From: Nitrospirae bacterium CG2_30_53_67
GTDB lineage: Bacteria > CG2-30-53-67
Direction of reading: 5' to 3'
DNA length: 8,757 bases
NCBI GenBank assembly: GCA_001873285.1
Contig: MNYV01000159.1
Span: 1 to 8,757, forward strand
The notes under the pieces were generated by a model, which saw nothing but the letters and a program-made list of their open reading frames with translations, was not told where the DNA came from and made no database searches. Position numbers and translations under genes: made by a program. Positions 6,488 through 8,757 of this stretch are shown piece after piece. The stretch's first letter is position 1. Every line of letters begins with the position of its first letter.

Positions 6488-6846
6488 TTGCATCTCCCCT
6501 GAATTTATAATATCTTTCCACTTGTAAAGCCTCTCTGGTAGAAGCTTAAACGTATCGTATCGCAGCCGCCATGAACGGGAGACCAGCCCATGCCTTTTGA
6601 TTCTTGCAAGGAAAATATCCGGTGAAACAGGTCATTATCAAAAACCCTGTCATCTGGTGAATTAGGTAACAACGTAACGAGGACTTACTTGCCTTCATTG
6701 TGATAATCAAAGTATGAAAGGAAGTCAAAGGCCTATTAAGGTTCTCATAATTATGAAAACATCAAATAAGAATTTCGCCTGCCCCCTTTTTTCAAGCGGG
6801 GAAACGCAAGGTAGACAATCTTTTTGATCTTTCTCCTAACCATTCT

Positions 6847-6867
6847 CCTCCCCTTTGTAAGGGGAGG
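6847..6867. repeat. C-rich/G-rich palindrome
   Basis: A perfect 9-bp stem, CCTCCCCTT / AAGGGGAGG, with a TGT loop, followed by TCAGGTGGGGT. This is the classic CTCCCCTTTGTAAGGGGAGGT form of the dispersed palindrome family in this window. Confidence 0.7.
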
Positions 6868-6906
6868 TCAGGTGGGGTAGGAAAAATGCAGATCTACCTC
6901 TTCTTC

Positions 6907-6927
6907 CCCCTCCTTACAAAGGAGGGG
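6907..6927. repeat. C-rich/G-rich palindrome at the truncation point of the methyltransferase gene
   Basis: A perfect 9-bp stem, CCCCTCCTT / AAGGAGGGG, with an ACA loop, followed by AACCGAGGGGGGGATT. Recognisable methyltransferase sequence starts about 30 bases further right (6962), so the repeat lies next to the break in that gene. Confidence 0.7.
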
Positions 6928-6979
6928 AACCGAGGGGGGGATTTTGTATAAGACATAAGGGGACATCAAGAAGGGCTTC

Positions 6980-8590
6980 GTGTACAAGCGCGTGCCGCAC
7001 GTAACGCTCAAGTCCATTGCGAACAACCCGGACATCAAAGAGGGGATGAGCCGCGAGGAAATCGACGCTGCTATTGCTCGGCATGCGGATACTGAGACGC
7101 TTTATGATCAACCGTACGAAGACAACAAGCGCATCCGCGTGACAGGGCCTTTCACTGTTGTGAGTCTTTCGCCTCACAGAACGCTGGCGCCGGAAGGCAA
7201 ATCCCCCCAACCCCTCTTTGGCAAAGGGGGGCAGAGGAGGGATTCGAGCATAGGTGTACATGGAGATTTTATTCACATGATCCTCGACAATCTTAAAAAA
7301 GCGGGCGTTCAGAACACGGTCAAGAATGAGCGATTGAATTTCGACAGGCTGGAACCCTATGCGGGTGAGTGGCTGCACTTTGCCGGGGAATATACGGAGT
7401 ATCCCCCTCACCCCGGCCCTCTCCCACGGAGGGGAGAGGGAATTACGAAGCGGGTTGCGGTCTGCCTGGGGCCGGAGCACGGGACTGTCGGGCCGGAGCT
7501 GATCAAGGAAGCGGCCAAGGAGGCGCTTCGGGGCGTAGGGTTCGATCTTCTCGTTGTCTGCGGCTTTGCCTTTGATGCTCATGCCGGAGAGACAGCCAGG
7601 CAGTTTACACCGACCCCCCTCAATCCCCCCTTACGAAGGGGGGAAGATAAGGGGGGTGGACAGATCATAGCCGAAGAAGAGAAGCACTATGGGAAATTGC
7701 CGATCCTGCTTGCGCGCATGAATCCTGACCTGACCATGGGAGAGGATCTTCTGAAGAAGACCGGCGCAGGAAACCTCTTCATGGTCTTCGGCGAACCGGA
7801 TATTGCAGTGAGCAGTGGGCTGTGGTTAGTGAGCAGCAATGGAAGAAAGGTGGTGCAGCTTGACTTCGCTCAAGAATTATCGGGACTTGCAGGTTTGGCA
7901 GAAATCAATCGAATGGGTGGAAGCGATTTACAACGCTTCAAAGAACTTTCCGCAGGACGAGCGGTTCGGTCTGACCAGTCAAGTCAGGCGAGCGGCAGTA
8001 TCGGTCGCAGCGAACATAGCCGAGGGCGCGGAAAGGACATCAACAGGGGAATTCCTTCAGTTTCTGGGGATAGCGAGGGGATCTCCGGCGGAAGTGGAAA
8101 CGCTGCTGATTTTGGCGGAGCGTCTCGGGCTTCTGCGGACGGAACAACGGGACACTCTGCTCGCACAGGCGTCGGAGATCGGGAAAATGCTCGTAGGGTT
8201 GCAGCGCTCACTGCGATCCAAGCACTGACGCCATCTGATTTTCCGCTGCACACTGCCCACTGCGCACAGGCCACTATCTTCGGCGTTGACGTGTACGACC
8301 CGACCACGGGCCAGATACGGAGTTCTTCAACGGATGACATCGCCTGCTGGTTCATAGACACGGACTACAACGGCGAGAGCTTCTTTGTCCGTCATGCCTA
8401 CTTCACCGGCGCTGATGAGCCCTACGAGAAGCTTAAACGGGCGCTTCGCTCCGAAGTGGACGAGGCCGCCTGGTCCATGCTTTACTCCACCATGAGTCAG
8501 CCCTTCGACCCACCCGCGACCGGCAAGATCGCCGTGAAGGTCATTAATCACTATGGGGATGAAGTGCTGAAGGTCTATGAGGTGAAGTGA
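6980..8590 (+). CDS. C-terminal remnant of a type III/Mod-like site-specific DNA-methyltransferase, 5'-truncated and repeat-invaded
   Basis: The frame has 536 codons from GTG 6980. Family-like sequence (DIKKGF) already starts at 6962, just after an in-frame TAA at 6956-6958. Recognisable blocks in order are YKRVPHVTLKSIANNP, YDQPYEDNKRIRVTGPFTV with SLSPHR, FDRLEPYAGEWL, GPEHGTVGPELIKEAAKEA, LLVVCGFAFD, RMNPDL, LLKKTGAGNLFMVFGEPDI, GVDVYDPTTG, DDIACWFIDTDYNGESFFV and GKIAVKVINHYGDEVLKVYE. These match the C-terminal half of large (about 900-1000 residue) adenine-specific methyltransferases as I remember them. The DPPY and FxGxG catalytic motifs, expected in the lost N-terminal part, are absent, so methylation is not expected. 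Three palindromes and one four-helix-bundle cassette interrupt the blocks, yet no stop or frameshift appears. It may be a pseudogene or a novel expressed protein; GAAGGG just upstream of the GTG is probably coincidental. Confidence 0.75.
   Translation: MYKRVPHVTLKSIANNPDIKEGMSREEIDAAIARHADTETLYDQPYEDNKRIRVTGPFTVVSLSPHRTLAPEGKSPQPLFGKGGQRRDSSIGVHGDFIHMILDNLKKAGVQNTVKNERLNFDRLEPYAGEWLHFAGEYTEYPPHPGPLPRRGEGITKRVAVCLGPEHGTVGPELIKEAAKEALRGVGFDLLVVCGFAFDAHAGETARQFTPTPLNPPLRRGEDKGGGQIIAEEEKHYGKLPILLARMNPDLTMGEDLLKKTGAGNLFMVFGEPDIAVSSGLWLVSSNGRKVVQLDFAQELSGLAGLAEINRMGGSDLQRFKELSAGRAVRSDQSSQASGSIGRSEHSRGRGKDINRGIPSVSGDSEGISGGSGNAADFGGASRASADGTTGHSARTGVGDRENARRVAALTAIQALTPSDFPLHTAHCAQATIFGVDVYDPTTGQIRSSSTDDIACWFIDTDYNGESFFVRHAYFTGADEPYEKLKRALRSEVDEAAWSMLYSTMSQPFDPPATGKIAVKVINHYGDEVLKVYEVK
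7200..7244. repeat. Palindromic element A, in frame within the methyltransferase ORF
   Basis: The outer arms AATCCC (7200-7205) and GGGATT (7239-7244) match, and the inner stem pairs CCCCTCTTT with AAAGGGGGG (7211-7231, one G-T pair). It is read as KSPQPLFGKGGQRRDS, which breaks the host protein after SLSPHRTLAPEG. The 45 bases equal 15 codons, so the host frame is kept. Confidence 0.7.
7402..7442. repeat. Palindromic element B, in frame within the methyltransferase ORF
   Basis: A perfect 9-bp stem, CCCTCTCCC (7417-7425) and GGGAGAGGG (7432-7440), is preceded by CCCCCTCACCCCGG. It is translated as YPPHPGPLPRRGEGI, the Pro/Gly-rich peptide typical of the CCCTCACCC repeat when it is read through. 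It falls between GEYTE and KRVAVCLGPEHG of the host protein, in what should be a loop. Confidence 0.7.
7613..7657. repeat. Palindromic element C, in frame within the methyltransferase ORF
   Basis: The outer arms ACCCCCCT (7613-7620) and AGGGGGGT (7650-7657) pair perfectly. The inner arms CCCCCCTT (7625-7632) and AAGGGGGG (7636-7643) also pair perfectly around an ACG loop. Its 45 bases equal 15 codons, and it is read as TPLNPPLRRGEDKGG, between the host blocks CGFAFDAHAGE and GKLPILLARMNPDL. Confidence 0.75.
7808..7824. repeat. Left inverted end of the four-helix-bundle cassette
   Basis: GTGAGCAGTGGGCTGTG pairs with CACTGCCCACTGCGCAC at 8251-8267, with 15 of 17 positions matching in inverted orientation. 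A second short GTGAGCAGC (7829-7837) echoes GCTGCAC on the right side (8246-8252). Confidence 0.6.
7860..8228 (+). CDS. Four-helix-bundle protein, 23S rRNA intervening-sequence-protein (S23/IVP) family
   Basis: A protein of 122 residues from the TTG at 7860, which has AAAGGTGG about 6 bases upstream and begins TSLKNYRDLQVWQKS as family members do; an in-frame ATG at 7839 would add seven residues. Family segments visible are DLQVWQKS (about 9-16), FPQDERFGLTSQVRRAA (30-46), NIAEGAER (52-59), FLQFLGIARGS (65-75) and EVETLLILAERLGLL (78-92). Related proteins are encoded in intervening sequences of 23S rRNA genes and resemble the Avd accessory protein of diversity-generating retroelements; their own function is poorly known. 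The gene is intact, lies +1 in frame relative to the methyltransferase ORF that encloses it, and is flanked by inverted repeats. No reverse transcriptase or rRNA sequence is nearby. Family assignment is secure; role is not. Confidence 0.85.
   Translation: MTSLKNYRDLQVWQKSIEWVEAIYNASKNFPQDERFGLTSQVRRAAVSVAANIAEGAERTSTGEFLQFLGIARGSPAEVETLLILAERLGLLRTEQRDTLLAQASEIGKMLVGLQRSLRSKH
8251..8267. repeat. Right inverted end of the four-helix-bundle cassette
   Basis: CACTGCCCACTGCGCAC is the inverted partner of 7808-7824 (15 of 17 positions). It lies 22 bases after the stop codon of the four-helix-bundle gene and just before methyltransferase sequence resumes at FGVDVYDP (from about 8280). Confidence 0.6.
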
Positions 8591-8757
8591 TGTCGGCAAA
8601 ACGCACTATAAACGATACTGAAGAGCTGGCTGCCCGTATTTTGGACTTTTTTGAAAAGAAGAATATTGACGTGGCCGTTCGGCGTGACCGTTATGGCGTA
8701 TCGATCATTGAGCGAACGGGTGGACACCCTGTCGCAAGATTCAAGATATGCGGAAAG
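8590..8757 (+). CDS. Unidentified gene downstream of the methyltransferase remnant (partial, 5' end)
   Basis: The ATG at 8590 overlaps the TGA of the preceding frame by one base (TGATG), and GAGGTG (8579-8584) lies 5 bases upstream, a good ribosome site. These signs of translational coupling suggest it was the next gene in the original restriction-modification operon. The 56 visible codons begin MSAKRTINDTEELAARILDF and continue with an alternating charged and hydrophobic pattern (KKNIDVAVRRDRYGVSIIE) before running off the window. I do not recognise the family. The frame appears intact, unlike its neighbour. Confidence 0.65.
   Translation, partial: MSAKRTINDTEELAARILDFFEKKNIDVAVRRDRYGVSIIERTGGHPVARFKICGK

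Follow-up and report, generated by a model that had tools for sequence, protein, structure and literature searches.

A gene cassette of the IVP/S23 four-helix-bundle family lies inside a DNA methyltransferase gene of Nitrospirae bacterium CG2_30_53_67, on contig MNYV01000159.1 (C159 of the 2.36-Mb genome bin G000), whose 8,757 nt are referred to here as the window. Comparison with other genomes indicates that the cassette is very probably a non-autonomous, site-preferring element that is nested in a protein gene, has been recurrently gained or exchanged, and preserves the reading frame of its host; any one molecular route by which it might move seems to us rather doubtful. A preliminary description of the window had recognized an intact IVP-type gene between 17-nt inverted ends within a methyltransferase; the open host frame across the insert, the recurrence of the site in other methyltransferases and the heptamer arrays at the ends are absent from it.

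Structure of the cassette and its host gene

The cassette, consisting of an array, the IVP gene and a second array, spans 7808..8267 on the forward strand (the strand of all features below unless stated otherwise), in a loop of the host methyltransferase between the motifs FGEPDI and GVDVYDPTTG. Its borders match sharp switches of identity in two pairs of related genes (G147/G315 and L087/G659, see below). The right border is uncertain within 8261-8267. The preliminary description had proposed a comparison with an uninterrupted locus to define exact ends and any target duplication; no duplication was found.

The IVP gene (7860..8228) encodes 122 amino acids from a TTG codon at 7860, and 129 if the alternative ATG at 7839 is used. 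Judged by its relatives, with whose ATG it is aligned, the TTG is the likelier start. It is preceded by the Shine-Dalgarno-like sequence AAAGGTGG (7846..7853), and comparable purine runs lie ahead of the IVP start in other methyltransferase-resident cassettes. In profile searches the open reading frame (ORF) at 7839-8228 belongs to PF05635 (E 4e-39; 133.5 bits against a cut-off of 33.8) and TIGR02436 (E 2e-37; 127.9 bits against 24), scoring above both curated cut-offs, and solved structures exist among its relatives (2gsc, 2rld). Differences between the window IVP gene and that of L087, an inserted homologue introduced below, pile up at third codon positions (45, 36 and 74 by position), and the IVP protein is therefore under selection.

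The two arms reported previously (7808-7824 and 8251-8267) are 17 nt long each and complementary at 15 of the 17 positions, so that this part of the preliminary description holds. The ends are, however, tandem arrays of 7-bp units rather than one 17-mer: the left array reads GTGAGCA GTGGGCT GTGGTTA GTGAGCA GC (7808..7837), and the right array (8247..8267, reverse strand) reads GTGCGCA GTGGGCA GTGTGCA as its reverse complement. The end-to-end inverted-repeat score of the window is 15, and values of at least 15 occur in none of 120 mismatched pairs of upstream and downstream flanks and in 1.3% of far-flank pairs from the same locus. When the cassette RNA is folded (z = -3.97), the right array pairs with the left, and this end-to-end stem closes the whole cassette. 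A search of the own genome for further copies with GTGNGCAGTGGGCNGTG ends, which had also been proposed, gave none, because the array sequence is specific to each element.

The host ORF (6980..8590; in-frame sequence extends up to 6959) represents the C-terminal half of a DNA methyltransferase resembling type III Mod proteins. Full-length N6/N4 methyltransferase homologues align with it solely over residues 1-278 and 432-536, the insert accounting for residues 279-431; this bears out the placement of the cassette within a methyltransferase. Full-length relatives of the host carry PF01555 (E 6e-27 in L087) and match EcoP15I Mod. The window host corresponds to residues 533-1083 of the L087 protein; it is truncated at the N-terminus, and its catalytic half is gone.

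Recurrence at a single codon

Scanning GTDB genomes with the host C-terminus yielded 80 loci, in 78 of which the loop could be measured. From FGEPD[IV] to G[VL]DVYDP it is mostly 27-42 nt long, always a multiple of three, and 77 of the 78 loops have no IVP cassette. The sole carrier is L087, from a member of the Phycisphaerales, with a complete host ORF and an intact IVP gene. Seven or eight other, unrelated hosts have short repeat-derived peptides in the very loop that the IVP cassette uses.

Surveys of 392 genomes from the phylum of L087 and 395 from that of G505, a Desulfobacteraceae bin, added six cassette-bearing methyltransferases: G168, G147 and G315 in the former, and G747, G659 and G856 in the latter. 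This brings the total to eight with a cassette in the same loop, the window and seven from at least two other phyla. G168, G147, G315 and G856 fall in another methyltransferase subfamily, with the motif IGQP[DE]V...GFDYYNPKTG; where members of this subfamily are uninterrupted, only 25-30 residues make up the interval that starts one residue before GQP and ends at GFDY[YF]. Exactly 18 codons separate GxPD[VI] from the IVP start in each of the seven cassettes that could be measured; the inserts in methyltransferases are 456, 477 or 480 nt long, all multiples of 3. Three of the hosts are full length (L087, 1083 aa; G168, 1015 aa; G147, 1004 aa); in G856 the IVP gene is interrupted by a single stop codon, and the host gene is disrupted downstream. 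Among viral contigs and phages there were two IVP matches, both in viral contigs, and no inserted host. The phylum of one further genome, G094, comprises only two genomes.

Histories of host and cassette

Host and cassette have diverged to different degrees. In the pair G147/G315 the hosts are 95% identical and the IVPs 62%, and in L087/G747 the values are 86% and 60%, whereas in L087/G659 the relation is reversed, with hosts 60% and IVPs 78% identical. At the DNA level, G147 and G315 are nearly identical until CCGGATGTG, divergent in the cassette and similar again from CAGGTAGARGT; L087 and G659 show the opposite pattern, their identity climbing at the left array and dropping after CCACTCGCCACT. 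These switches at the array ends, together with the incongruence of host and cassette, indicate that the cassette is a discrete unit, gained or exchanged several times at one codon.

One could suppose instead a single ancient insertion in the methyltransferase family, followed by many losses and by later swapping of resident cassettes through recombination between the conserved parts, with no recent entry into empty sites. The identical codon position and spacing throughout would follow from a single event, and the first five methyltransferase IVPs to be found do group together, if weakly (support 0.42). We nevertheless regard this history as unlikely. In the tree, the L087 host is nested in a clade with support of 1.0 whose remaining members have no insert, and the near flanks of the L087 insert follow this clade, not the window. 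The history would further have to accommodate the similar cassettes of L087 and G659 in much less similar hosts, with identity switching at the array ends, and very many losses would be needed to leave 77 of 78 measured orthologues empty. A separate possibility, that a window-like donor left a gene-conversion tract on either side of the L087 insert, is ruled out, as the near flanks follow L141.

An open host frame across the cassette

Across the cassette the host ORF of the window has no stop; its frame precedes that of the IVP gene by one base. The same is true of all eight methyltransferases, none of which has a host-frame stop across the cassette, and in each the host frame differs from the IVP frame. 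The 61 IVP loci sampled first comprise 58 from 24 genomes together with L087, L089 and the window; stops are absent from this frame in just two of them, the window and L087, and the next lowest count is two. With synonymous codon shuffles that preserve the IVP protein, the probability of an open host frame per locus is 0.0015-0.10. Shuffling six loci jointly 2000 times gave a minimum of 4 stops and a mean of 12.8 against none observed, in loci that are related and hence not fully independent trials. The third frame is not depleted of stops (40 observed, 37 expected).

It might be argued that the window host is a pseudogene in decay, that an ordinary IVP gene has ended up in it by chance, and that the frame is open by luck. 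This host does lack its N-terminal half and contains three other repeats, and the chance of an open frame at a single locus is about 0.01; with the same arrangement in seven further methyltransferases, three of them with full-length hosts, such a coincidence is largely refuted and hardly credible.

The peptide encoded by the host frame within the insert is more conserved than in codon shuffles, as is that of the third frame, and the conservation therefore reflects shared codons; this comparison gives no sign of a constraint on the host-frame peptide itself, and no evidence that the insert peptide is functional. Structure prediction for the C-terminal domain of L087 (mean predicted local distance difference test score, pLDDT, 69) puts the insert, modelled at low confidence (about 30-60), between two better-predicted strands of one hairpin. 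From the open host frame, the constrained IVP gene and the predicted hairpin loop, we infer that the host is translated straight through the cassette and that the IVP protein is made separately from its own start.

Alternatively, the cassette could act at the RNA level, like the intervening sequences (IVSs) of 23S rRNA: RNase III would cut the array stem, the mRNA would be fragmented or rejoined, and the methyltransferase would be made without the insert or switched off. The arrays do close a long stem, and RNase III cleaves stems of this kind in rRNA IVSs that encode proteins of the same family (PMC4990558). Splicing-out or constant destruction of the mRNA, however, gives no reason for a stop-free host frame in eight of eight cases, and no intron family was matched, a search of Rfam finding no group I or II ribozyme core in the window or the L087 host region. 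The fragments that remain after excision of an rRNA IVS, moreover, are not known to be rejoined, and we consider an RNA-level role of this kind improbable.

Several observations weigh against a mobile, frame-preserving cassette. There is no integrase, transposase or reverse transcriptase inside it, nor any target duplication; as the host loop has been replaced, the empty site available for this comparison is inexact, and no duplication is visible there. Since the window host is without its catalytic half, read-through counts for less here than in the full-length hosts L087, G168 and G147. The queries that spanned the insert at the protein level favour frame-open cases, and the unbiased search with the C-terminus found one inserted host in 78. 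The G.U asymmetry, which bears on pairing as RNA or as DNA, amounts to 83 versus 52 sites and 15 versus 11 loci, with few loci driving it. The clustering of the first-found IVPs noted above belongs here as well, and exchange between hosts could, case by case, be recombination of resident cassettes rather than fresh insertion, the two looking alike.

IVP cassettes outside methyltransferases

The ends of the window cassette recur in kind around IVP genes generally. With the controls given above, the inverted-repeat score of the flanks is at least 15 in 61% of the 61 IVP loci, and 18 of the 24 genomes have at least one such paired-end cassette. Pooled self-match near IVP genes peaks at lags 7, 14 and 21, with no peak in the far flanks (at lag 7, 0.354 near the genes versus 0.261 far away), and heptamer ends are found in most of the held-out cyanobacterial plasmid loci. 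The heptamer varies by element, even within one genome, yet left and right arrays agree, and no end sequence is common to all. Between cusB- and cusA-like efflux genes, two genomes of the same genus have an orthologous cassette (L240 and L252) in which both arrays have changed in concert; the IVP is shortened in one of the two genomes. Most cassettes lie between genes, often inside operons, for example nuoD/nuoH and carA/carB (gene names assigned by eye from translations).

The preliminary description had suggested that such cassettes are a broader class of non-autonomous mobile DNA that tolerates insertion into genes. Their wide occurrence outside rRNA and their behaviour as discrete units agree with this; the location of most of them between genes, not in them, does not. 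We tentatively entertain the view, to which we would not commit ourselves, that IVP cassettes form a broad mobile class whose only constant end feature is a pair of complementary, concertedly evolving arrays of about 7-bp units, and that one lineage homes to a single methyltransferase codon and persists there as an overlapping gene with the host translated through it.

Two further settings of IVP genes were noted in cyanobacteria. On Pseudanabaena and Anabaena plasmids they lie between cas6 and cas4 of CRISPR loci (L356, 1501-1860; L361, 1495-1863), and two plasmids of Calothrix brevissima NIES-22 have a block of integrase and S23 gene in common at matching positions (L352, L353).

The genome of the window itself contains tens of copies of a miniature inverted-repeat transposable element (MITE) whose interior derives from another IVP cassette. 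It occurs at about 40 places on many contigs (among them L192-L221, L005 and L011). Its outer ends read GGWTCATCTCCAAAAGAGTGGGT / ACCCACTAAATGGGAGAAGAACC, its IVP gene has an internal deletion, and several contigs terminate within the element. In one copy (L215, contig C154) the flanks are inverted repeats of each other, which reflects either a nested insertion or an assembly artefact.

This family raises the possibility that the window cassette is likewise a MITE, moved by the transposase of an ordinary insertion sequence, given that a multi-copy element with a degraded IVP gene is at hand and shows 8-bp AT-rich target duplications, clear in 11 of 17 copies. The MITE, however, has fixed outer ends of its own, which the window cassette lacks, and the IVP part is cargo there; the ends of IVP cassettes have no common sequence of the kind that terminal inverted repeats provide, and the methyltransferase site bears no visible duplication. 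What the MITE demonstrates is that a transposon can carry IVP cassettes along; it does not demonstrate this for the window cassette, and transposition of this type strikes us as very improbable here.

Short repeats and a second copy of the locus

Three short palindromic repeats lie in frame in the host gene upstream of the cassette, their limits being approximate: one at 7197..7250 (peptide ..SPQPLFGKGGQRRDS..) and one at 7398..7446 (peptide PPHPGPLPRRGEG), both missing from the L017 orthologue, and one at 7605..7662 (peptide TPLNPPLRRGEDKGGG), missing from orthologues and coinciding with a break in the match to the G055 protein at residues 207-230. Palindromic repeats with SPLTLALSPRRGE-like peptides occur both within the host gene and adjoining it upstream at 6840-6945, and host homology begins abruptly near such repeats (6944-6980). 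A second copy of 8449-8757, 96% identical, opens at the start of contig C115 of the same bin (L031), and represents a second allele, a strain variant or an assembly split.

Comparison with known systems and a possible mechanism

The closest parallel is the 23S rRNA IVS with an S23 ORF, such as that of Coxiella burnetii, which is 428 nt long and processed by RNase III (PMC4990558). The window cassette likewise has an S23 ORF between stem-forming inverted ends, and the two share protein family, approximate size (about 440-465 nt here) and scattered distribution. Unlike the IVS, the cassette has no rRNA match and resides not in a 23S rRNA helix but in a protein gene, with a preserved frame, heptamer-array ends and repeated occurrence at a single codon in one family of methyltransferases.

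Rickettsia palindromic elements and similar repeats are inserted in frame in surface loops and leave the host readable. The IVP cassette resembles them in this, but it is much longer and has a protein-coding gene of its own in a second frame; together with its paired arrays it is exchanged as a unit. The cassette recalls inteins and homing introns in being gained repeatedly at the same position of a conserved gene and in having a tree discordant with that of its host; in contrast to these, the IVP gene is in a different frame from its host, and no splicing domain, ribozyme or endonuclease was recognized. In two insert-carrying hosts only methyltransferase domains match, with no intein Hint domain.

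IVP proteins are homologous to Avd of diversity-generating retroelements (DGRs) (PMC10053308), a related four-helix-bundle family. The window IVP scores below the cut-offs of the Avd profiles (bAvd, E 8e-7; DivGenRetAVD, 31.6 bits against 80), and neither a reverse transcriptase, judged by eye among the window ORFs, nor a DGR template repeat was seen in the window, so that it has neither the score nor the neighbourhood of a DGR Avd. Heptanucleotide tandem repeats are known from cyanobacteria, Xanthomonas and Beggiatoaceae, and form inverted pairs in Xanthomonas (PMC4692102; PMC4679880). They share the 7-bp unit with our arrays, which differ in flanking IVP genes; S23 and four-helix proteins are unmentioned in those papers. 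In the open-access literature we found no earlier account of a methyltransferase-resident cassette or of paired heptamer arrays, nor a paper that connects IVP cassettes with either heptamer arrays or methyltransferases.

A mechanism compatible with these comparisons can be outlined. Host ribosomes would read through the cassette, and the resulting methyltransferase would contain about 150 inserted, non-conserved residues, tolerated by the loop; translation of the same mRNA from an internal start, in another frame, would give the IVP protein. The paired arrays may form a hairpin in RNA or single-stranded DNA, to which the IVP protein, as a relative of Avd, may bind; the cassette would then be moved by an enzyme supplied in trans, whether a polymerase, a reverse transcriptase or a transposase. 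Selection would then retain only insertions whose length and phase keep the host readable, which would help to explain the recurrence in the same loop.

Implications

Where S23/IVP elements come from and what they are for has been an open question since their discovery in rRNA genes. A discrete cassette with concertedly evolving paired ends, found at many intergenic sites and at one exact codon, makes both its mobility and the function of its ends testable in cultivable bacteria. The methyltransferase-resident cassettes also present a recurrent case of overlapping coding, in which the reading frame of a host is maintained across an entire foreign gene. Finally, IVP cassettes offer a possible origin for heptamer repeats that are so far unexplained in bacteria: those long known from cyanobacteria and other genomes may in part be footprints of such cassettes.
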